Positions 1,105-14,516 of a stretch of 64,000 nt of DNA are shown in pieces (the stretch's first letter is position 1; every line of letters begins with the position of its first letter). This stretch comes from Hygrocybe punicea (taxonomy: Eukaryota; Basidiomycota; Agaricomycetes; Agaricales; Hygrophoraceae), in contig OY744471.1 in assembly GCA_963556145.1 (NCBI GenBank), positions 365,590 to 429,589 of the forward strand, in the 5' to 3' direction. A program made the translations under genes and the position numbers. The notes under the pieces were generated by a model, which did not search any database, had not been told where the DNA came from, and saw nothing but the letters and a program-made list of their open reading frames with translations.

Positions 1105-2034
1105 AACACCGGATTCCCTTGGAAACTTACTATCGCTCGTTATACATCAACTGGTCTCGACTCTTAATATCCTTGTGCGTTTCTTATCTCCCTTCATTTC
1201 ATTGTGGCGCATTCCCATACACTCTAGATAGGTCTCTTGGTCCTTTAGCCAGCTGGACTGAAGACATGGTGGATGTTGGTCAACGCTGATTGTTTGGTCG
1301 TTGAGCCACCTTCTGGGCTACGCCTCTCTGATCATTTCCTGCGGCTGCGAGCAATGACTCAGAATCTCGCCTTTTGCTTCATCGATCCTCTCAATCTACC
1401 CCCGGCATCCTTTATCGTTCATCTGTGCCATCCTTCAGATCTTCAGACATCGTCACACCCGCGGAACGGAATGGGGCGGTTTGGGTGGCGGGGCGGCGGG
1501 GTGGCGGGGCGGCGGGGATGCACCTAGACAGCAATCAATAGCAATGTTTTTTATTAGAAATGGGAATGTTTTTTAATGTATCTTAATGGCGAAACATCTG
1601 CTCAGGGTGCAGAAATCTATTTAAATTCCGGAATTATATTTTCATGGAAGTTATACTACCTAAAAGTTTCTAGATAGGTGGACTTTTCACTGGGGTTGAC
1701 TGACCAAATCTGCATGTATTTTTGCCCATGTTCAAATCAACCAAATCTAGAGTAAAGAGGGGCCATGTGTGTTAAGAAATCAGGCAATTCGAACAGCATA
1801 ATTGTCCCATCAACGTTTGGCAAAGACATATATACCTCTTCGACTTGAGCGGAGCCCTAGGTAGGTAAAAAAAAAACCCTCCAGTTTGTATGATTGGGAA
1901 GGGAGGCAATATGGTTCCACGTACAGATTGACATATGGCAGGTGGGGCATTCTGCAGAGGTGTTCCAACCTTGCGAACTGTGGTACATCATGCTGGTAAC
2001 CTGGAGATAAGATACCCATAATCAAGCACTGCAC
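1105..2034. other. No recognisable gene
   Basis: An 84-residue open frame at 1273-1527 ends in a GGCGGGG-type simple repeat (about 1470-1520) and does not look like protein. The rest is AT-rich and featureless up to the transposon end at 2035. Confidence 0.5.
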
Positions 2035-2341
2035 TACGGTTGGCGGAATGGCCGCGGTTCGATTCAACCAGCGTGTCAGATTAATATCATAGATTATTAT
2101 ATAAACTCGATGTTTATAATATTATTTTTCATTAGATAATTGCCTATGCCTATAATTGAACAGCGGGCAACAATAATTGCAGGCAACAATAATATATTTC
2201 GGGGGGGGGGTCAATGAGACACACAGAATGACTACATATATCAACAAGGCGCAATCCGGACACTCAGGGGGGGGAAGGGGATCAACGAGGCGGACAGAAT
2301 GACACTATATACATCAACAAGAGGCACAGTCGAGGGGGGGG
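2035..2341 (+). repeat. Left terminal inverted repeat of the integrase/kinase transposon
   Basis: This is the reverse complement of 9420-9727, with small differences mostly in the G/C runs. It contains two poly-G tracts (near 2200 and 2265) and a third near 2333, mirrored as poly-C on the right. Confidence 0.9.
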
Positions 2342-2348
2342 GTTATTA

Positions 2349-3928
2349 TTACAATGCAGCAATCACTGTCGAAATGTCATGAAATATATCCCAGCAATTT
2401 GTAAAGGTTATCACCGGATTACCGAGGGACTGGTGTGCCGCTTCAGCAACAGCCGAAAAGTCTTCACTGACCCAGTCAAGATAGGTACTCAGCGGCCCAA
2501 CTTCTTCCACAAGGTACTCCCGGAGATGATCAATGGCTTGTGTAGGGACAGGAATGAGGCAGTTAAGCCCTCCGTAAAGGGTTGGATGCTCAAGAACATC
2601 AATTGGGACATGTCCAGAAGGCATTGCTTTATCAGCCTGAGTGCGAACCCGATGGTAATTCCACCACTTGCGAAAATCATCAAGTTCAGCTTGAATGAGA
2701 GGTGGGAATATCCAGTTGAATAGATCCCTGTGTATTTTTCATGTAGTCAGTGTGAAGGCTACATGTCACGGCAGGGTACCAAACCAACTTATGGAACGGC
2801 ACATTCGGATTGAAGATATGCTCTCGTTTGCCGCGCAGTACGTGGTCCTTAATGTTGAGGCCAGTTTTCTCTTTAAGCCATTGCCAAAAACCCTCAATGG
2901 TCGTATGGTGGGGACTCGGAAGAATAACGTATGAAGGGAAAGTATCAGTATCGATGTCCAGTGCATATGTGTTCCTGTAGGTCCAATTCAATAAACGCAC
3001 CATAAGCAGCTTGATGTTACTCACCGAAGAGCATCCTGGAATGCATACTGCCATCCAATTTCTGAGCTTTTGTCTGTTGTTGATTGGATTGGGATACCTG
3101 TTCATTTTGAGATCGAAGTGAAGTCCTCCAGATGAAATCTCTTACCTCCAATTTCGGTTATAAAGTCTAAGTAAAGGTGGCCAATGGCCCCTGCATTGCG
3201 ACAGTTGGGCACAACAGATAACTTTAACAGAACATCGCTCCATTTATCTTTATTGGTAACCCGATTTCGCCCATGTCAAGAGCCTGTTGTGAGAGTTTCT
3301 CATGACCATCAGAAGATATTTCGTGATAAGGACTGATTGCTGATAATGGTCGTCGAACCATCCCTCGATTTCTACCAGGGAATCGTTTGTCGAAGCCGAG
3401 AGGAAAATGTTCAAGCATAATGTTACGAACACTTTGCCTGTGAAAGTCTGATTCAGCTGACAACAATCAACATACGCCGCACAGCCGGCTTTTGTACCTT
3501 GCAACAAGCATTCCTTTCTGCTGCAACACGACTTGCACAAAGTTTGGCCCATTGTTCTGCACAACATCCTTGTCAACAACATCAATGACCAGCTGCCTGG
3601 CAACCTCTGGAGCAAGAGGCTTTCGAACAGATGGAATTCCCAGCCGGCGCTCCAGCTCCTTCAGAGTAGTTGTGCTATCATCATTCATCTTCAGGCAAGT
3701 AGTATGGACATCTCTAGCAGACACTCACCGAATGGCTAAGTTGTAGTCTTCCTTCAATCTCTTGATTTTCTCCTCTCTTTTCAGTCCACGTCGAGTATAC
3801 TCCATAAGTGAATCCCTGAGGATGTCGTCAGGAGGGTCTAGGAAGCCGAATGTAAGTAGCGTACTTCAAGTGGAATTTAACTTACAGATTTTTTCGCCAT
3901 AGCCGTTTTTGCCCTCAGGATTCGGCAT
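2349..3928 (-). pseudogene. DDE integrase (rve-type) of the transposon, one frameshift
   Basis: This is the presumed transposase. The start at 3928 gives MPNPEGKNGYGE, the usual N-terminus of the Agaricomycete 'integrase core domain' proteins. Next come a helix-turn-helix region (LKELERRLGIPSVRKP, then a segment ending LLQQKG), the first catalytic Asp in the SSDGHEKLS block, the GHLYLDF block, the catalytic Glu in IEGFWQWLKE and a C-terminal GGLNCLIPVP. Four or more introns are readable, for example donor GTTGGT to ACACAG restoring NVPFHKDLFNWIFPPLIQ. Between GEIGLP and KDKWSD near 3230-3250 a few bases are missing and the frame shifts, so this copy is probably inactive. The last codon lies next to the left inverted repeat. 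The family call is firm; exact exon ends are approximate. Confidence 0.75.
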
Positions 3929-4095
3929 GGAGGTCAGGGATGTTCAAAATAATTCAGGTTGTTGTCAATGGTGTGACAAAGTCCGCTGCTATTTTGCGTT
4001 TTTTTTCCCTAACCATCACTTCACATCACACTCTTTTACCTAACAGCAGCGACTTTTTTCCTGCACAAAACCCTCCTTTAAACATTCCTCTGCAT
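3929..4095. promoter_or_regulatory. Divergent promoter between integrase and alpha-kinase
   Basis: Only 167 bp separate the two start codons, which point away from each other, so the two genes must share control sequences. No TATA box or repeated operator stands out. Confidence 0.5.
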
Positions 4096-6490
4096 ATGGA
4101 TGACAACAACAACTCTGAATGTGATGGTTGCGGCATAACCTTCCCGCTACGGCAGAGTGATGGTCCTTGCCCCAAGTGTATCAAGCTTGGAGTTCACGCA
4201 CGCGACTCCATTGAATATTCTGATATCTCAGTACATTAATCTCCATCCTTTGCCACAAGTTTTCTTATATTTTGCCTAGAAATGGCCACAATGTCTGGCT
4301 TGTGGTGTCACTCGGCGCAATATGGCACCACCTCCTCTCAACTCTACTCAAACATGCGGCTCTATTCTATGCAACAAGCATACAAATGCAAATGCCGACA
4401 ATGGTTTGCCTCCCCACAATTTAGTGTAGTCTATATTATTCACATCTATACTTTTCAGCGGCATCGTCCCAGCTTCAATCCCAAAGCCGATCCCTCGCAC
4501 GAAACATCCCTGATGCCCACCAGCTTCGTGCTGCTGCCACACGAGAACGTCTCAAGCTGTTACCGCCATCCACCAGAGGGCCAACCACCAGTCTCAGCTC
4601 ATTAAACCTTCTTCAGCATGAGAATGGAGGAGGCGCGCCAGGTGAAGAGAAAGTCATGATTTGCTGGCAGGTATGTTTCGTCTTCATCAGTGTATACCAG
4701 TATTACATGTTACTTGAAGGTACGCGTCAGCAAGAATCCTCGAAGTATCGACGCCGACCTTGGTAGTGGTGCAAAGCGCTGGGCTGTTTCACTGTTTATG
4801 GAAGATATTAAGGCACAGATTACACAGCAAATTAGTATCGAGTGGACTCGCAGGCGCTCGCTACCATTGCTGCCGTATGTCATCTCTCCATCAACTATAA
4901 CCCTCTGACAAATATTACATAGTGAGGACGTCTCAATCCGATTTGATGGAAACAAAGTCCTAGAGTCTGACACAGCAACTCTCACGCTACTAGAGTTTTA
5001 CCGTTTTTATTCGTCTCCGAACATGGCACCTATTTTTACCCAAAAAGTCCCAGCAATGTGGAAGCATCATTCAAAAACCAAAATACCATTTCTTTGTTTG
5101 GAAATGTACATTAATTTTGAAGCGGTATGATTTTGTTTTAATGTTCCACGCTTGATGATGACAAACTTTCTTGGGATGCAGTGGCTGGAGCGAGCAGAGG
5201 CTGCAGAATATGATGGAAGGTGTGGAAAGGGGCAATCGCTATGCAAAAAATGTGTTCAGGATGAGGAGATAGAAAATGACGGTGACACAGATACTGCTGC
5301 TAGCAAGCGCGCATGTACAGGTGGTAGGTGGTAATTTTCATCAATAATTTTCAATTTGACTGATATCATCCACAGGAACAATGCAATCCAGCTTTCGCTT
5401 GTCAGGCCGGACTGAACAATCAGTCATTCTCACCCGAACTTTTGTCAGCCTGAAAAAATTTATTTGCTGTGTTGACGATGAAACAGCTGATTGCACATTT
5501 GAGAAAACTGGAAAAAGTATCTTTGGCGAGTTAGGAGATAATCCGTCAAATTCTGGCAGTATGAAACATGTCTACGATGTATGTGATTGTTGATCTTTCT
5601 TTGCAACTCACCGGACACTATTATAGCTCATGACATCAAATGGACGCTTTGCCGTCAAACGGTTTTTCCGTCTCAATGAGCAAGACAAGCTTTTTGATGA
5701 AGATGAACCAGGCAATGCTGTTTCTGTCAGCGATAATAATATTCAGATCCAGGCAGAGTTGAGTCGGCTAGCGCTTGGACAATGGTTCCTCAAGGCATTC
5801 TATAAGTTTGCTCAGAGGAAGGGTGTTGCTGTCGACAAATGTATGTTGTTGGTATTGCTCACAATGCCACTGACCAAGCTCATATTACGACTAGACATCA
5901 TGTTTGCTGATGCCTTTCTTGGAGAAGAGGAAGGAAATCCAACCCCTGCCTCCGGTCAATCCCCTGATGAGAAACCCATCTGGTGGCTCGTAGAGAAACA
6001 GCGCCCCACTACTGCTATTCAGTACAGCGGGACCCTCACACATACTACAAACAAGAAAGATCTGCGCAGCCTAACCGTATTTGCACTTGCACATTTTGTC
6101 TACGGTCACAGCAACAAGGAGATGGTATTTGCTGATATTCAAGGTAAGCGAATACATGTCCACAACACTATCTCCTTACCGAACTTTAGGTTCTCCTACC
6201 TCGGTTAATGGTCGGGATTTTTTGGTTTTGTTCGATATTATAACTCACACTATAACCGGGTAAGTTCTCGCTGTCAGACATATTACGGTGTTAATTTTTT
6301 CTTTTTCAGTAAATCTGGTGTTGGTGATTTCAGTGTTGACGGTATAAAGACATTTCTAAATGATCACACCTGCGGACAGGTGTGCATCGCTCTTGGGCTT
6401 GATTCCGAGGTCGCATTAGATACATTTGACGTGCAGGTTGATGAGAATGAGAATGGAAATGACGGTGGCCAATTTTCAGAGGACTCTTAA
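4096..6490 (+). CDS. Alpha-type protein kinase with N-terminal zinc-finger region
   Basis: An atypical protein kinase of the alpha-kinase (MHCK/eEF2K) fold. The start at 4096 opens with CDGCGITFPLRQSDGPCPKC, a CxxC...CxxC zinc ribbon; exon 2 has a second cysteine set (CLAC...CGSILC). A low-complexity middle follows. The kinase domain starts near 5380 (FRLSGRTEQSVILTRTF) and has VKRFFRLNEQD, the GQWFLKAFYKFAQ helix, LTVFALAHFVYGHS, the catalytic loop Asp in FADIQG, then VLFDI-THT, the SGVGDF turn and DHTCGQVC, whose CxxxC with the two histidines forms the known alpha-kinase zinc site. All signature residues are present. At least seven short introns are needed; the splice near 4400-4475 is ambiguous. 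An acidic tail ends at 6490. What a transposon gains from a kinase is unknown. Confidence 0.8.
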
Positions 6491-7227
6491 TATGCTTTTA
6501 CTTTGTTTCTCGTACTCATAGCTTACAGCCAACTGGCCCGCGTTAATACCTTTATCTTGCATCCCGTGTGAACATCAGATAATAGGCTTGTTGACTTCCC
6601 CATCATGGCGAATCCAATCCAACTACCCAGACTCGGACCTCTTGGTAGAATTGATGCCAACATACGACTTCCAACCACACCTGGTAACCCTGTCACCTAC
6701 GAAGATGTTTTTGATGCTAGACAATACCGCAAAGCTGTTGAACATGCGCAAGGTTCTTCTCATGCAATTGATATATTCTTCTCACCACATTGCCACTACA
6801 GATTCTGCAAATCGAACAACCAGGGTAGAAGTAGTTGATGCTGTCGTATACGAGGCGCAAGTTCTTCACGGCTACAAAGACTTGGACAGGAGTAAGCCAT
6901 GAAAATAAAAAATAAAATAAAAAGACTAACTTGTATAGGCTTACCACCTGCTTGGTTTCAGCAAATGATAGATCCCATGTCGGCCAATATCGAAAGGATG
7001 AAAGCAAGTTTAGCAGAAATTCCGAACATTAGGGATGAAATCCGACATGTCAAGACCAGCATACGACACCTTGTGGCTAAGGTGGACCAGCTTGCCCTGG
7101 ATATCACGGAGATCAAAAGTGATGTGAATATCATCAAGGTGCAGGCGTCTAAGGTAGGCTGATATATGTACTAACATTTTAAATGAGTGACTCTTTCGCA
7201 GGCTGTAAACCACCAATTATTTGACGG

Positions 7228-9114
7228 TAGTGTTGCCACGGCTCGGTCCGGAACCGTTAGCCGTTGGAGCCGGACCAATAATTAGCCGAGCCGAGCCATT
7301 CACTCGGCTAACGGTTAAACCTCGGCTTAGCCACGGCTAGCCATTATTAGCCGTTACCAAATATCCAAATTAGGAAATTTAGGTTTTCAGCCCGTTTGCT
7401 GGCTTCAACTTCACTTAGATAACCCCTCTGCTGCCTCCCATACCTCACGAACATGTACAGCCATTTCGCAAGGTTTTTAGGTGTTTCTTTTTCGTTTTGC
7501 GTATCTCCATGTACATGTACATGTATATGAAAAAAATGAAAAATACCTACTTCGTCGTCTTCCTGAATAGATCCATATTAAGCTCGTCAAACTTGGCCCG
7601 TGTAAGAATTTCCGAAAAGTTATTGCTGTCCTCGAACAACTCGATTCCGATCCTCGTCGACTGCTGGCTTGACAACATCCGCTTAGCCTTCTCGACCTCG
7701 CGCTTGAGCTTGCCCATTGCTCTCAAGTTAGTACCTGTCTTCTTGTACGCCTTAATAAGATGGTCAATAACGCGGTTGTAAAAGTCCTCGCCTGCGAGAT
7801 GAGTATCACCAGCAGTAGCTGATACTTCAAAGACTCCGTCGTCGATAGAGAAAAGCGCACATCAAATGTCCCTCCACCAAGATCGTAAACGATGATCTGG
7901 GACTCGCCGCCTTTCGTTTTTGGGATTGGAGTGGAACGTATTTTTGGCGCTGTCCCCGACGCTGCGCGTATTCGGGGTCAGTACGAAAACGGATTTGCGG
8001 AATCCGAAATGGACTTACAGCCGTTCGTCGTCACTGCAGCTGACCTAAGAGGGAGTTATCCGATGGCCTTGGTCGTGTAAGGTTCCATGAATGGCTTCGT
8101 GCAGCAAATACGCATTTGTGGGAATCGGATGAGGTGAGAGACGGCACCCTCGTCCGTTGATCCCGAGGAATACGTCGCGCTGGAGCTGGAACCGGTGGCC
8201 CCGGATGACACAGAAGTGGTGCGAGTAAGGGGATTGTAGTCATGGACGAGTAAGAGCGGCGGTGGGGGAATGATAGACGTGCGGCGTGTTGTCTGACCAA
8301 GCGGCAGGATTGGCGGTCTAGTAACGGGAGCGGGGGCGACGACAGGATGCGAGGTTGTAGAACGACGTTGAGCTGTCGTGATGGTGGCCGTGACTGTGGT
8401 TGTGACCGATCAGCGCCGTAGGGCGAACGCAGCAGTCGTAGCGGCAAAGAAGCTGATGGTTGGTGGTGGTGGTGCCTGAACTTGCGAGCCCGAGTTCGAG
8501 GACCCGGTTGCAGGGTGTTGGGTCGCGGCCGTGTTGTCACCGTGCGTAGCTAGACAGATCTTTGTTAGTAAAAGTAAAGAAAAAAAAACTTACCAGTGCA
8601 GCAGAGATGGGTGCACGACACTCCGCAACGTCTGGGACTGGCAGTCGTCGCTGCTGTTGCCGTCATTGCCACTGCTACTGTTTGCCGTCGCCGTGGTCAT
8701 TGGTCGTTGCTGCTGCTGGCCGGGCTGCTGTTGCCTCGAGATCATTTGCGCTGTAGTCAGAAATAAGTTGGTAGTAATAATAAAAAAAGATTCAAGAAAA
8801 GACATAACGTTGCCACTTCATTGCTCGCCCTCTGCTGGTTGCCGTTAGGGTGCTGTGGCCTTTGTTTTGGGTCGGCCTGCGTTGTCGCGAGCTGGTGTGG
8901 CTGTGGCTGTTGGCGTCAGGTATGGTGGTGTCACTCGCATGTTTGTGTGGATATTGGTGGACCTTGTTGGTTCTCCGCTATTAATTTCCTTTTTTGGACG
9001 GCTAGCCGCGGTTTAGCCGTTGCCACAACGGTCCGGTCCGGCTAATAACCCATATATGGGTTAGCCGTTGTTAGCCGTAGCCGAGCCGAGCCGGACCGAG
9101 CCGTGGCAACACTA
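7228..9114. mobile_element. Non-autonomous hAT element with captured gene fragments
   Basis: The ends are inverted repeats beginning TAGTGTTGCCACGGCTCGG, flanked by the 8-bp direct repeat TTTGACGG (7220-7227 and 9115-9122), the target size of the hAT superfamily. Both ends are packed with CGGCTA/ACGGTTA subterminal repeats shared with the 9.3-kb hAT at 40936-50263, including a TAACCCATATATGGGTTA palindrome. There is no transposase. The interior holds an Hsp70 fragment (7553-7925, minus strand) and GC-rich mosaic DNA, including a Gln-rich stretch on the minus strand (about 8590-8760), that may also be captured. Confidence 0.9.
7553..7925 (-). pseudogene. Captured fragment of an ER Hsp70 (BiP/Kar2-like) gene
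   Basis: Reading the minus strand gives [19 protein letters not shown] (the phosphate-2 motif of the Hsp70 ATPase), [26 protein letters not shown] and FDELNMDLF in family order. SSQQSTRI and the ESQIIVYDLGGG context resemble the fungal ER form more than the cytosolic one. A one-base deletion after GTFDV shifts the frame, several codons after KKTG are missing and only about 120 of some 670 residues remain, so it is a dead fragment carried as cargo by the hAT element. Confidence 0.85.
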
Positions 9115-9419
9115 TTTGACGGTTCGACCATCAAATATGAAGAAGTGCTATCTCCAACTGGCAAGAAGCTTGCAGAGGTATATAACTGGTTATTCTTATC
9201 TTTCCCACTGTTCACTCTGACGTTCTATGCTTAGGTCAACCTCCAGCCTATCCGAGATCTGGCCAGACTCAAAGCTCTTAACGGTGATAAATTGAAAGAA
9301 TACTATCAATTTTACCATCCTAATTCCCGGGTTGGGACCAAGACTATACGCGCCATGCGTGAGGACATACGTGTTGCCATTGGGTGCATGGTACCGATCA
9401 CGGAGTAGCCGCCTCCCTC

Positions 9420-9727
9420 GACTGTGTCATGACTGCCTCTTTTTGATGTATATAGTGTCATTCTATGCGCCTCGTTGATCCCCTTCCCCCCCCCCGAGTG
9501 TCCGGATTGCGCCTTGTTGATATATGTAGTCATTCTGTGTGTCTCGTTGACCCCCCCCCCCGAAATATATTATTGTTGCCTGCAATTATCGTTGCCCGCT
9601 GTTCAATTATAGGCATAGGCAATTATCTAATGAAAAATAATATTATAAACATCGAGTTTATATAATAATCTATGATATTAATCTGACACGCTGGTTGAAT
9701 CGAACCGCGGCCATTCCGCCAACCGTA
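9420..9727 (-). repeat. Right terminal inverted repeat of the integrase/kinase transposon
   Basis: This mirrors 2035-2341. It starts only about 10 bp beyond the stop codon of the Mug135-like gene at 9408, so the gene's 3' end and any polyadenylation signal must lie in the repeat. Confidence 0.9.
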
Positions 9728-10015
9728 ACTGCGCTGATAATTGATGTTGGCATGGCGTGAGCTGGGGTATTGGCATTCGGGTGTGCGACAAATTTTACAT
9801 AAATTACATAATTCTCGGTCCATACCCATCGCCTCGTCTTCTCGCACCACAAATTACAATGACGGTGGCTGTCCCTTGCCCCTACACCTTGTCGTCTCCT
9901 CTTCGCGCAGGTTCAGTATGCGAGATAACCGTGACACGACTTTATCGAACTCATGCCAGAGAGATGGGCTGCAATACGTAGGTATCAATACCGGCAGACA
10001 AGCTGTGATGGCTAC
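9728..10015. other. Short unique flank between two transposons
   Basis: This lies between the right inverted repeat of the integrase/kinase transposon and the 3' end of the Ngaro element. I see no gene or repeat in it. Confidence 0.5.
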
Positions 10016-10189
10016 TCTATGTCCGTGCAGGCAAAGTTTCTGGCAGAAGGAATTTGTTTCGGAAGTGGTTACGAGAAACAAATCTGTGGTATAGCGAGAA
10101 ACTCAGTTTTTGGGGGGAAAAACAGGAAGGGGTTTTTTCAAACTCGAAAACAGTGTCCAGTCCTAATCGAGAAGTCGAATGAGCTGCGA
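10016..10189 (-). repeat. Ngaro split direct repeat B2
   Basis: A 174-bp copy of 10502-10675 with the same length and a base change in the G/A run. It marks the 3' end of the element. Confidence 0.9.
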
Positions 10190-10501: not shown

Positions 10502-10675
10502 TCTATGTCCGTGCAGGCAAAGTTTCTGGCAGAAGGAATTTGTTTCGGAAGTGGTTACGAGAAACAAATCTGTGGTATAGCGAGAAACTCAGTTTTTGGG
10601 GGAAAAAACAGGAAGGGGTTTTTTCAAACTCGAAAACAGTGTCCAGTCCTAATCGAGAAGTCGAATGAGCTGCGA
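10502..10675 (-). repeat. Ngaro split direct repeat B1
   Basis: A 174-bp copy of 10016-10189, just downstream of the tyrosine recombinase gene. Confidence 0.9.
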
Positions 10676-10755: not shown

Positions 10756-11990
10756 TTAGCGGGGAGGTGGCATTGCATAGCGGAGGAAGGGTTCCAGGAT
10801 TGGCGTTCCCTGCATATATGGGGCCATGACTACTGCGTGTTGGCGTAGGTATGTTAGGAATGCGCCGGAGGTCCAGCGACCAATGGTTTTTACCACCTCG
10901 AAGGGAACGCCTCGTAGTAGGAGTTCAAGTGTGGCTCCAATACGGATCCCATGTCCCTGAAAGGGAGGTATTTTCAGTGCTTTGCTGATATCCTTCAGCC
11001 GTGATATGAAAGCTGATCGCGTGAGAGGTCGGAGTCCTTGAGGGTGGCGCCATGCGAATAAAGGATCAGCTGGGGATGGGTTGTTGATGGCGAAGTGGTT
11101 ATTGATGGCGGCCTCTGGATCCGATGGGCCTGGTTGTGTCGACCAGTATATATCCTCACCTTCTCGTGAAGTCTTGGTGACTGGGATGTGGAAGACTGAT
11201 ACTTTGAGATTGTTGCGATCTTTCCGCCACGTCATGTCAGAGCGTTGGACATGTAGGTTAGGATTGAAGGCTTTTAAAGTGGGAACGGTAAGTTCACCAA
11301 GCCGAGATACGGAATAAAAGGCGGTCGTAAGGCAAGCATAGAAGGCGGCATCGAAAGGGAGCGTTAGGTCCAGTTTATCCTTGGCCATTGCTAGGAATTC
11401 GGTGGTGACGGGTTCTCTCTTCGCACGAATGGATGTGGGGGGAGTGAGGGAAATGGCGCCATCGAGGGCCGCTTTTATCTCTGGGTGATTGGCGGACCAT
11501 GGCTGGCCATGGAGAATGTGCCATGCACGGACAGCGAAGACATAATTAGCCAGCGTCTTTCCGGAGTAAGCTCCGGCGCAGTTGGCGATGAAGGCGAGGA
11601 CTAGGACAGGCCCGGCTGGACATCGTTGAGGTTCAGGGATGCTGCGGAGATCACAGAACCGGTGAAATGCGAGAAGTCCTGCACCGTATCCAGCCTGAGT
11701 GCCTTGAGCCCAGGATACACCGATGACCTCTAGGATTCGGTCTAGGTCAGCATCGGTGATGTGGAGGGTGTGTCCGTTAGCATCATGTGCCGTACGTGTT
11801 CGAGCTGGTACCCATAGCCGCAGACGGTCGCGGGCAAGGCAGTGGGGACGAAGCGGTGAGTCAAGAGGGGCCAATCCGAGTCGATATGGTTGTGGCCTAG
11901 AAGGAACTGGGGCTGGGGGGGGATTGAAGGGTGGATCAACCAGACCATTGGCTTCGGAGGGCTCATATATCAGTCTCAAAGTCGGTGGGC
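10756..11990 (-). CDS. Tyrosine recombinase of the Ngaro element
   Basis: This enzyme integrates the circular cDNA through a covalent 3'-phosphotyrosine. The open frame runs much further upstream, but protein-like sequence starts only near 11990, so I place the start there; it overlaps the reverse transcriptase frame (stop at 11963) and is probably expressed by frameshifting, reinitiation or a spliced message. The N-terminal core-binding half is helical (GTQAGYGAGLLAFHRFCDL). The catalytic domain has the first Arg in SVSRLGELTVP, the HxxR pair in GHGIRIGATLE, Trp in TIGRWTSGAF and the Tyr in LTYLRQHA. All catalytic residues are present. Confidence 0.85.
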
Positions 11991-14275
11991 TGTTTGTGTG
12001 GGGGACCAGGATTCCTGAGAGAATTTGCAATGAGTTTTGCGGTTGCTTTGGGGTATCGGCCCTCTCGGAGCAGCTTGAGCTCAGTGTCTGAATATGGTAG
12101 GGTCGCATCAATGATGAACCGGTCGAGACCGGCGGGTATTTCGACGGGGGGTAAGAGGAGGTGGTACGGAGGATATATGCCCCGGGAGGGGCCATCAGCT
12201 GGGTTGGATTTGCTGGGGATGTAGGTTGCATGGATCGAGATAATGGAGTCACAAGACTCGATGAAGTTGTGGATGCGTTTAAAGATGTCGTTGATGGCTG
12301 CATTCCTGCTGCGGCCATTTGGCCAGCCTTCAACGACTCCCATGTTGTCCCCGAATAATTCAAAATGCTGGCCAGTTGTCGCAGACCGGGCGACTGATCG
12401 AATGAGGAGTTCGAATCCCAGGGCCTCTGCCCAGCCGATGTCGCGTTTACCATCAAGGGTCTTCCATCCTGGAATGAGGCGCCAAGCGCGCCAGCGGCCA
12501 GCAACGACGATTCCGATGCCAATGCCCGAACTGGCATCTGAGAAGGCGTCGAGGTTTGTGAGGTGGACAGGGCTTGGGATTGTCCGGCCAAGGAAGGGTT
12601 GGGCCAGCTTGGCACGCCACCATTGCAGGTCTCCACGGATTGACTGGTCAGCATGGCGTGGCATGAGAGGACGGTCACCGTAGATGCCAAGCATGTTCTC
12701 CAGGCCGGTGAGGTAGGCGCGGCCTGGAGGGACCACCAGGGATGCGTGAAGGAGCTTTCCGTAGATTTTTTGTACATCGCCGAGGATGTGGGTAGGCGAG
12801 CATTCCCATTCATGGATTGACGTGAGGTATTTGGCCTTCTTCTTTGGTGGAAGGGAGACCATGAGTGTTTCCAGATTCCAATCCAGGCCAATGAATGTCG
12901 TGGTTGAAGCAAAGGGCAGGTCCTTGGATTTCTCCCAGGGGATACCCAGCTGGTCGGATAGACGGTCAATGTCGTCGAAGTTGTAGGCGAAGCGTTGGTC
13001 CTCAGAGGAGCGGGGTGAGTGCGATGATAAGTCGAGGCAAGGGGAAGAGCAATCTTCGTCGAATTCTTCCAGCGTGCCATCGGGGAAAACTCTGCCACCA
13101 AACCAGAGGCGCCCACCATCGTGATGTCGGCCACGGGGGGCAATGTCGGCGTGCCAGTCTCTGCGGCGCATGTTGTATTCGTGGAGGCGTTCTCGAAGGA
13201 TCCGGAAGAAGATGTGGTCGTCGACCCATTTGGAGAGAGGTGCCATCCCATGGCAGCGGAATAGCTCGGTGCCTGCATCGCTGACGGAGCCATACACTCC
13301 GGCTGATGGTGCAACCCCGAAGCAGGTGGCGGTGTCGATGCAGAATTCGTCGGCAGCGAGTCGGACGACGGCACCTGGCCATTGGGAGGGGTGCAGGGGG
13401 ATCGTCCGGTATGCCTCTGCCACGTCTCTCGTGGCTGCCTGAGAGCCGGGGGGAAGGCGTGAGATGAGTAAGGAGACGATTGAGAAAGTCCCCCAGGTGC
13501 TGGGGAAGCGGTCCGAGTCGATCTGGGAGTTGATAGAGGGACTCGGGAATTTTGGTGAGGTCTTATGAGGGAATGAATAGTTTTGTACGTTGCGGAAGTG
13601 ATTCGGTCGGCCTGGTTTGGGTATGATGCCAAAGGGGGCCGTCTGGAAGGGGCCGATGAGCGTCTCGAGAGTTGACTGAGAAAAGGGTCCCAGGTATCGG
13701 CCTTTGGACAGCTCTTTGGATATGATTTTTTGGAATTCGGAGCTATGTTCAATGATGGAGTCTTTGTTGGGTGGGGCTTGGGTGCGTGAAATGGTGGGTA
13801 TCTCAAGATTGAAACCATATCGCATACTTTGAGGGAGATGATCATAGCGAGGCCAGATGCTATTTGAACGGAGTAGCGCTTCCCAAGCATCCGGTTTATA
13901 GGGAGTGAGGGCTTGATGCCTTCTGCGCTCGAGGACAGCCTTGTGCGCCGTGAGTGGTATGACCACATCCGGAGCAGAGGTGACGATTGTCGTGGCGGGT
14001 GCTGGTGCAGCCGGCCACGCGTTGGAAGTCGACACAGATGGGGCGGCCATCGCGGAGTACGAGGGACTTGTTGACGCGCTGTGCGAGCGCGAGGTGGAGT
14101 CCATCCCAGGTATGCGTTGCGGCGCATTCCACAATTCTGTGGGGGTTGCGACCCAGGCATACGGCGCAGGCAGAGTAGCCCCCACTGCCTGCGCCTGCCC
14201 GAAAATCCGACTTCTTTTCCGGACATCCTCGGCTGTCGCGAGGCCGGGGTGGAGACCCAGACCTCCTGCGAGCAT
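11963..14275 (-). CDS. Reverse transcriptase/RNase H of the Ngaro element
   Basis: A 770-codon open frame. Convincing protein begins about 120 residues in (ALTPYKPDAWEALL). RT blocks follow: LIGPFQTAPFGIIPKPG, FRNVQNYSFPH, TRDVAEAYRTIPLHPSQW, then the polymerase WVDDHIFF, where VDD replaces the usual YxDD as in DIRS elements. The RNase H domain has DAFSDASSGIG, a Glu in the WAEALGFELL helix, FGDNMGVVEGW and the ADGPSRG end. A zinc-knuckle segment (CAVCLGRNPHRIVEC and CSGCGHTTHGAQGC) is in another frame at 13896-14516 and ends inside the first part of this frame, so a frameshift or splice probably joins the two. No internal stop. Confidence 0.9.
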   Translation of the reverse strand: MLAGGLGLHPGLATAEDVRKRSRIFGQAQAVGATLPAPYAWVATPTELWNAPQRIPGMDSTSRSHSASTSPSYSAMAAPSVSTSNAWPAAPAPATTIVTSAPDVVIPLTAHKAVLERRRHQALTPYKPDAWEALLRSNSIWPRYDHLPQSMRYGFNLEIPTISRTQAPPNKDSIIEHSSEFQKIISKELSKGRYLGPFSQSTLETLIGPFQTAPFGIIPKPGRPNHFRNVQNYSFPHKTSPKFPSPSINSQIDSDRFPSTWGTFSIVSLLISRLPPGSQAATRDVAEAYRTIPLHPSQWPGAVVRLAADEFCIDTATCFGVAPSAGVYGSVSDAGTELFRCHGMAPLSKWVDDHIFFRILRERLHEYNMRRRDWHADIAPRGRHHDGGRLWFGGRVFPDGTLEEFDEDCSSPCLDLSSHSPRSSEDQRFAYNFDDIDRLSDQLGIPWEKSKDLPFASTTTFIGLDWNLETLMVSLPPKKKAKYLTSIHEWECSPTHILGDVQKIYGKLLHASLVVPPGRAYLTGLENMLGIYGDRPLMPRHADQSIRGDLQWWRAKLAQPFLGRTIPSPVHLTNLDAFSDASSGIGIGIVVAGRWRAWRLIPGWKTLDGKRDIGWAEALGFELLIRSVARSATTGQHFELFGDNMGVVEGWPNGRSRNAAINDIFKRIHNFIESCDSIISIHATYIPSKSNPADGPSRGIYPPYHLLLPPVEIPAGLDRFIIDATLPYSDTELKLLREGRYPKATAKLIANSLRNPGPPHKQPTDFETDI

Positions 14276-14516
14276 CGGTTAACCGCTTGTGCTCTCGGCT
14301 CCGTCTGGAGGGGGAGGGGTTGGCAGCGGTGCTGTGGGCTGAACTAATGTCCTGGTCAGCCTGAGCGCGTGGATGCGTAGGGTGCGGGTGCGGAGAGCAT
14401 GCATGGAGCAAGGGTGTGGCATGCGTGGAGCAAGTGTGTGGCATGCATGGAGCAAATAAGGGGCATGCATATAGCAAAGAGAAGGCATGCATGGAGCAAA
14501 GAGGAGGCATGCGCAA
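13896..14516 (-). CDS. Zinc-knuckle region of the Ngaro element
   Basis: A frame overlapping the start of the reverse transcriptase frame. It encodes cysteine/histidine clusters (CAVCLGRNPHRIVEC, CVDFQRVAGCTS, CSGCGHTTHGAQGC), like nucleic-acid-binding knuckles of gag proteins. Its first 40 codons are translated from the 22-bp minisatellite and look meaningless. It is probably the N-terminal part of the polyprotein joined to the RT frame; the joint is not resolved. Confidence 0.6.
   Translation of the reverse strand: MRMPPLCSMHAFSLLYACPLFAPCMPHTCSTHATPLLHACSPHPHPTHPRAQADQDISSAHSTAANPSPSRRSREHKRLTDARRRSGSPPRPRDSRGCPEKKSDFRAGAGSGGYSACAVCLGRNPHRIVECAATHTWDGLHLALAQRVNKSLVLRDGRPICVDFQRVAGCTSTRHDNRHLCSGCGHTTHGAQGCPRAQKASSPHSL

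Follow-up and report, generated by a model that had tools for sequence, protein, structure and literature searches.

A probable IS3EU-like DNA transposon of Hygrocybe punicea with a resident alpha-kinase gene and a Mug135-like gene beside its integrase

In a 64,000-nucleotide stretch of the genome of the agaric Hygrocybe punicea (assembly GCA_963556145.1, contig OY744471.1, forward-strand positions 365,590 to 429,589; hereafter the window), positions 2035-9727 are a copy of a DNA transposon that holds three genes, encoding an integrase, an alpha-kinase and a Mug135-like protein. The left terminal inverted repeat (2035..2326, plus strand, outer end TACGG) was located by BLAST-type self-comparison together with DNA and pattern searches of the genome, and the right one (9434..9727, minus strand, outer end CCGTA) by self-comparison. 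The two arms are ~293 bp long and 97.3% alike over 294 columns in the self-comparison of the window; an earlier note on this DNA had put them at 305 bp, and while the repeats are real, the longer count adds only a few matching bases past a small indel, as judged by eye. Comparison of the flanks revealed a 7-bp target-site duplication at 2028..2034 and 9728..9734, with six of the seven bases alike. The integrase gene is read leftward, and the kinase and Mug135-like genes follow it rightward. Exactly 167 bp (3929..4095) separate the divergent start codons of integrase and kinase, the value given in the earlier note, and the Mug135-like stop codon (9408) lies ~10 bp before the right repeat, again as claimed there, if the repeat is counted as 305 bp, or 25 bp from the BLAST boundary. 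Introns were placed by hand and with our own spliced aligner, giving gene models without transcript support. The window copy is damaged by a 10-bp deletion in the integrase gene and by a hAT-like insertion in the Mug135-like gene.

A search of the host genome (92.2 Mb in 42 contigs, here labeled C1, C2 and so on, with L numbers for loci) with the inverted repeat returned 16 matches. Two of the loci are further full copies (C1:2423586-2429399 and C7:1307266-1312978), both with the same three genes, so that all three full-length copies of the window family carry the complete set in unchanged order. With the nested insert left out of the alignment, these copies share 98.7-98.9% identity; those on C1 and C7 are flanked by perfect 7-bp target duplications (7/7), and the similarity of the window to both of them ends at the element ends (235-270 bp of window flank compared). 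In the C7 copy all three frames are open, yet there are deletions within its repeats, and 1 bp is missing from the kinase gene of the C1 copy. The other seven repeat loci for which a long stretch was retrieved (L019-L025) are each truncated, interrupted or diverged, and the truncated ones are without some of the genes. Taken together, the repeats, the duplications and the two additional full copies bear out the proposal, made from the window alone, of a three-gene DNA transposon. We also observed one shared truncated window-family end at C9:12295, C23:10543 and C8:6097843; two of these contigs are small, and duplicated ends or haplotype contigs may be the cause.

The integrase gene (2349..3928, minus strand) has seven exons, with its ATG at 3928 and its stop codon (2349-2351) bordering the inner side of the left repeat. 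Relative to the C1 and C7 copies the window integrase has lost 10 bp near 3251, and the C7 frame is open over 422 amino acids (aa). Candidate catalytic residues D153, D219 and E262 are present in all four integrase sequences compared, and the HHCC motif is absent upstream of the first catalytic D, where only C51, C60, H120 and H148 occur. The Pfam family rva_4 (PF24764) matches at 23.4 bits (5.4e-5) for the C7 copy and at 25.5 bits for a rough join of the window exons, in both cases below the cut-off of 26, and covers approximately positions 100-175 of 194. Since this match is both sub-threshold and partial, we regard the integrase as a distant relative of rva_4 and no member of it. Comparison by sequence with the PDB gave no relative at E ≤ 1.

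The alpha-kinase gene (4096..6490, plus strand), delimited by Pfam, spliced models and alignment, has 11 exons and encodes 627 aa in a frame that is open in the window copy. Pfam Alpha_kinase (PF02816) matches the C7 copy at 79.2 bits against a cut-off of 21.3 (5.5e-22). Alignment of 18 sequences showed K401, Q544 and G545 to be invariant and D542, D560, H587, C589 and C593 to be kept in at least 90%; we take these to be the catalytic Lys, the D-x-Q-G motif and the zinc-binding His and Cys residues. By domain match and conserved residues, the transposon kinase is a predicted alpha-kinase. Among PDB entries it is related to myosin heavy chain kinase A, ALPK1 and eEF2K. Its C-terminal ~80 residues, with DIQG and the zinc-binding His/Cys, can be aligned with those of alpha-kinases such as Dictyostelium myosin heavy chain kinase A; in contrast to these kinases, the protein described here has a Cys-rich N-terminus and a middle part without a Pfam match, and is encoded by a transposon. 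At least 17 homologues (E ≤ 0.001) were found among 7999 scored candidates of a protein collection, in which proteins come without genomic context; 14 of them are named, from 11 species that we take to be Agaricomycetes, the class to which these relatives would also assign the genome, and the Cys-rich start is common to those with a full-length N-terminus. In a kinase tree of 19 rows, a metagenome kinase clusters with the second transposon family described below and separately from the window family (99/97). Of the two Favolaschia proteins, one pairs with a Mycena protein (100/100) and not with the other. A Hohenbuehelia protein (P0017) matches both PF02816 and PF13358, perhaps as a mis-joined nested insertion. 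With one of the kinase homologues as query, no relatives were found in viral-contig and genome-contig collections.

The Mug135-like gene (6605..9408, plus strand) is split in the window by the insertion at 7228-9114 and has five exons and 235 aa in uninterrupted copies. Its product consists of an N-terminal part, a coiled coil (judged by eye) and a Mug135_C domain (PF08593), which scores 44.6 bits in the C7 copy against a cut-off of 23.8 (1.8e-11). The protein thus resembles Mug135-like proteins in having this C-terminal domain above the Pfam cut-off and differs from them in its N-terminal part, its long coiled coil and its location on a transposon. None of 345 candidates in the protein collection was a homologue at E ≤ 0.01, and a profile built from six Mug135-like sequences gave one poor match among 5999 candidates. 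Three other Mug135-like loci of the genome (L065, L066 and L069) are 96.9-99.6% identical across 3.1 kb, a stretch in which neither integrase nor kinase was found; they are perhaps another element bearing a Mug135-like gene.

A second, sister family, found via its integrase and kinase and with integrase matches 50-85% identical, was detected at C3:4.25 Mb, C6:0.37 Mb and C6:7.81 Mb. Integrase and kinase were both detected in these three copies, which have all three genes in the window-family order, and a fourth, at C7:1.42 Mb and with a nested insertion, gave integrase and Mug135 matches only. The earlier note had proposed that the three genes move jointly, and the 3/3 full copies of the window family together with the 3/3 second-family copies, all in the same order, support this. 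For the second family, a pattern search gave the positions of the ends, whose sequences were read over short stretches. The C6:0.37 Mb copy has TACGG..CCGTA ends and a 7/7 duplication, the C3 copy has TAGAG..CTCTA ends and a 6/7 duplication, and a single, decayed end was seen for the copy at C6:7.81 Mb. The C3 kinase (L037) has one in-frame stop in its gene model, and its D-I-Q-G motif has N for D; judged by its sequence, this copy is decaying. On C7, a 20.8-kb composite (1402650-1423510) has second-family ends (TACGG..CCGTA) with a 6-bp duplication (6/6) and Mug135 and integrase matches, and encloses a convergent kinase-integrase pair of another lineage.

In order to relate the three genes across the whole genome, related integrases were collected with three protein queries, matches were merged to loci and classic rva_4 loci were removed, leaving 31 of 39; lineages were grouped by hand from identity values. 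Merging into places was likewise done by hand (21 Mug135 matches to 18 places, and the listed rva_4 matches to 75 loci). An alpha-kinase lies within 8 kb at 18 of the 31 related-integrase loci, and a Mug135_C match lies within the same distance of 10, one of these (C7:1.41 Mb) via nesting. The classic rva_4 integrases of the same genome served as a control: among the matches listed, 0 of 75 loci are near a kinase and one is near a Mug135 match. On the first of these counts we rejected the idea that classic rva_4 integrases belong to the same family.

Seen from the kinases, the genome-wide search places 15 of the 27 Pfam matches close to one of the 31 integrase loci, and 20 of the 27 are near an integrase after a sensitive profile scan of the flanks, a count that includes five integrases found solely by this flank scanning and returns to 15 when they are excluded; uniform placement would lead one to expect 0.16 of 27. 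A Mug135 match lies within 10 kb of nine of the 27 kinase matches (0.1 expected), although C7:1406102/1409401 is more plausibly a case of nesting and the C36 genes, 9.9 kb from each other, are a doubtful pair, so that seven remain.

The genes occur in three arrangements. The window and second families share the order with integrase leftward, then kinase and Mug135-like gene rightward. At C3:6.70 and 7.79 Mb a rightward integrase is followed by a leftward Mug135-like gene and a rightward kinase; the integrase group with this layout comprises five loci, with a kinase at two and a Mug135 match at three. Lastly, a rightward kinase converges on a leftward integrase at 10 of the 11 loci of a third integrase group, C39:1.98 Mb being the exception. 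Gene order has thus been reshuffled between lineages while partner genes were retained. Weak integrase traces in the convergent layout are present at five of six further kinase loci (L038-L041, L044 and L036 at C6:595 kb), with none at L039. Five of these loci (L038, L039, L040, L041 and L044) are near-identical (97-99% over the shared part), and four of the five sit within 170 kb of a contig end.

Comparison of the C7 copy with the C3 element gave ratios of nonsynonymous to synonymous differences (pN/pS) of 0.21 for the integrase (370 codons), 0.29 for the kinase (456 codons) and 0.54 for the Mug135-like gene (194 codons), all of them upper estimates because synonymous sites are near saturation. 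Between the C3 and C6 elements the kinase has a dN/dS of 0.17, and the Mug135-like pN/pS ranges from 0.51 to 0.66. The integrase and kinase are therefore under strong purifying selection, the kinase being nearly as constrained as the transposase, and the Mug135-like gene is under weaker selection.

The features of the element can be compared with those of IS3EU transposons, for which the description in PMC10045372 gives TA..TA termini, target duplications of usually 6 bp and no HHCC motif. Rust IS3EU families are described in the main text of PMC12730594 (Kojima, 2025) as having TAYGG..CCRTA ends, inverted repeats over 30 bp and 6-bp duplications, and all TET+ families as having an alpha-kinase opposite to the transposase with a TET/JBP gene between. 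TA..TA termini are present in the three full window-family copies and in three second-family copies, and the window element matches the rust type with its TACGG..CCGTA ends and ~293-bp repeats, whereas the C3 copy with TAGAG..CTCTA differs. Compared with the TET+ IS3EU elements of fungi as that text presents them, the window element shares the rust-type ends, the long repeats, and the kinase opposite the transposase, and it fits the published descriptions also with its DDE triad (D153, D219, E262); it differs in its mostly 7-bp duplications, in having nothing between integrase and kinase and in its third, Mug135-like gene, and Mug135 is not mentioned in that main text. Styx of Zymoseptoria, in the account given of it in PMC10853768, is likewise a fungal element with an IS3EU-type transposase and additional genes, is ~8 kb long and moves in crosses; unlike the window element it has 6-bp duplications and GATA, CCHC and DUF3577 domains, with no kinase among its four genes.

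The earlier note had thought a kinase as regular transposon cargo to be new, which no longer holds, as this has been in print since December 2025 in the main text of PMC12730594. Searches of open-licence PMC papers brought up no published case of a transposon with a Mug135-like gene. The alpha-kinase as regular transposon content is thus already known, and what appears to be new is the pairing with a Mug135-like gene, target duplications of mostly 7 bp, and gene sets that were reshuffled yet retained.

We consider positions 2035-9727 to be a copy of an IS3EU-like cut-and-paste transposon in which the alpha-kinase and the Mug135-like gene are resident, the kinase being no chance passenger, with a probability of about 0.78. 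The alpha-kinase is resident in this transposon lineage and many of its relatives, and the Mug135-like gene in part of the lineage. Several observations weigh against this assignment. Three of the 18 linked loci rest on kinases found with queries taken from integrase-adjacent kinases (these queries added four kinases, three near an integrase and one, at C1:8153428, not), and with Pfam matches alone the linkage is 15 of 31. At thirteen of the 31 related-integrase loci no kinase lies within 8 kb. Five of them are truncated copies of the window family, of which the C2 copy retains kinase pieces by tblastn (L022, L023), three are single weak matches, and five are others (C39:1.17, 1.98 and 3.51 Mb, C8:5.87 Mb, which has a Mug135 neighbor, and C7:1.42 Mb). 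Integrase-only elements, which the earlier note would have taken as contrary evidence, were not seen among full-length copies; kinases away from an integrase, its other contrary case, do exist, 12 of 27 having none within 8 kb in the genome-wide search and 7 of 27 after the flank scan. As to the Mug135-like gene, the lineage with convergent kinase and integrase gave no Mug135 match belonging to it, and eight of the 18 Mug135 places are without a related integrase within 8 kb, five of them (C2, C34, C6:6.27 Mb, C36:5.26 Mb and C8:1.9 Mb) resembling the window protein. Finally, duplications are 7 bp long in five of six copies (two with one mismatch) and 6 bp in one, against the usual 6 bp of IS3EU.

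Among alternatives, the kinase and Mug135-like gene might be host genes taken up a single time by a transposon that had only an integrase, and carried along passively without being of need to it. Capture of host genes does occur here, because the nested hAT-like element carries a piece of HSP70, and the Mug135-like gene evolves faster than the other two. Kinase and integrase, however, both show strong purifying selection between families, the kinase is retained beside related integrases in three gene arrangements, and alpha-kinases are reported in rust IS3EU elements in the main text of PMC12730594, such that we judge passive cargo improbable. A distinct superfamily outside IS3EU, with 7-bp duplications of its own, would accommodate the five of six copies with that length, the merely sub-threshold rva_4 match and the lack of a PDB relative by sequence; this is somewhat less probable again, given that the TA..TA termini and TACGG..CCGTA ends, the long repeats, the missing HHCC motif and the kinase opposite the transposase all fit IS3EU descriptions, and that one second-family copy has a 6-bp duplication. 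An ordinary host gene cluster lying between chance repeats, brought there by unrelated insertions or segmental duplication, could draw on the truncated ends on near-identical stretches of several contigs (C9, C23, C8), but was rejected as highly implausible on the 7-bp duplications directly outside the repeats at different sites in the full-length copies, where in addition the window resembles the C1 and C7 copies only as far as the ends of the element, over the 235-270 bp of window flank compared.

If the element is an IS3EU-like transposon with resident partner genes, its DDE integrase would cleave at the TACGG..CCGTA ends and insert the element into target cuts with a stagger of mostly 7 bp. 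The kinase, whose N-terminus is Cys-rich, may act in trans and phosphorylate host proteins of chromatin, silencing or repair, or else the transposase, and the coiled-coil Mug135-like protein could be an adaptor bridging kinase and target. By such a route the element might escape silencing or time its movement, by analogy with the TET/JBP enzymes proposed for other fungal transposons. We tentatively favor phosphorylation in the service of counter-silencing or transposition timing, with the Mug135-like protein as a possible adaptor, as the function of the kinase, at odds well short of even. A wider proposal, to be held at least as loosely, is that kinase and Mug135-like protein form a dedicated transposon signaling module, inherited by several IS3EU-like lineages and retained despite rearranged gene order, which acts on host chromatin or repair so that the element can move; the expansions of these families in basidiomycetes, counted there as host genes, would in that case largely consist of transposon genes. 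PMC4469406 describes the alpha-kinase family of rusts as highly expanded, and a row of its table reads 79 and 39 copies, one number per column; should the majority of these kinases lie within transposons, that expansion would be a count of transposons and no adaptation of host signaling. Purifying selection on a kinase borne by a DNA transposon likewise raises the testable question of what the transposon gains from phosphorylating something.

The insertion that splits the Mug135-like gene (7228..9114) is a hAT-like element with an HSP70 fragment (PF00012, 4.1e-25) and is foreign to the IS3EU-like element. It measures 1887 bp, has 24-bp perfect inverted ends and an 8-bp duplication, and is absent from the C1 and C7 full copies; relatives of it are present in L020 and L021 (78% over ~600 bp plus a 25-bp end). 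Additionally, outside the transposon, window positions 10756-14343 contain two long overlapping open frames on the minus strand, in which Pfam found a single weak, sub-threshold DNA_pol_viral_C match. By eye the frames resemble those of a DIRS-like retroelement, one for the reverse transcriptase and one for the tyrosine recombinase. Adjoining them are 174-bp direct repeats at 10016-10189 and 10502-10675, which are 99% identical.

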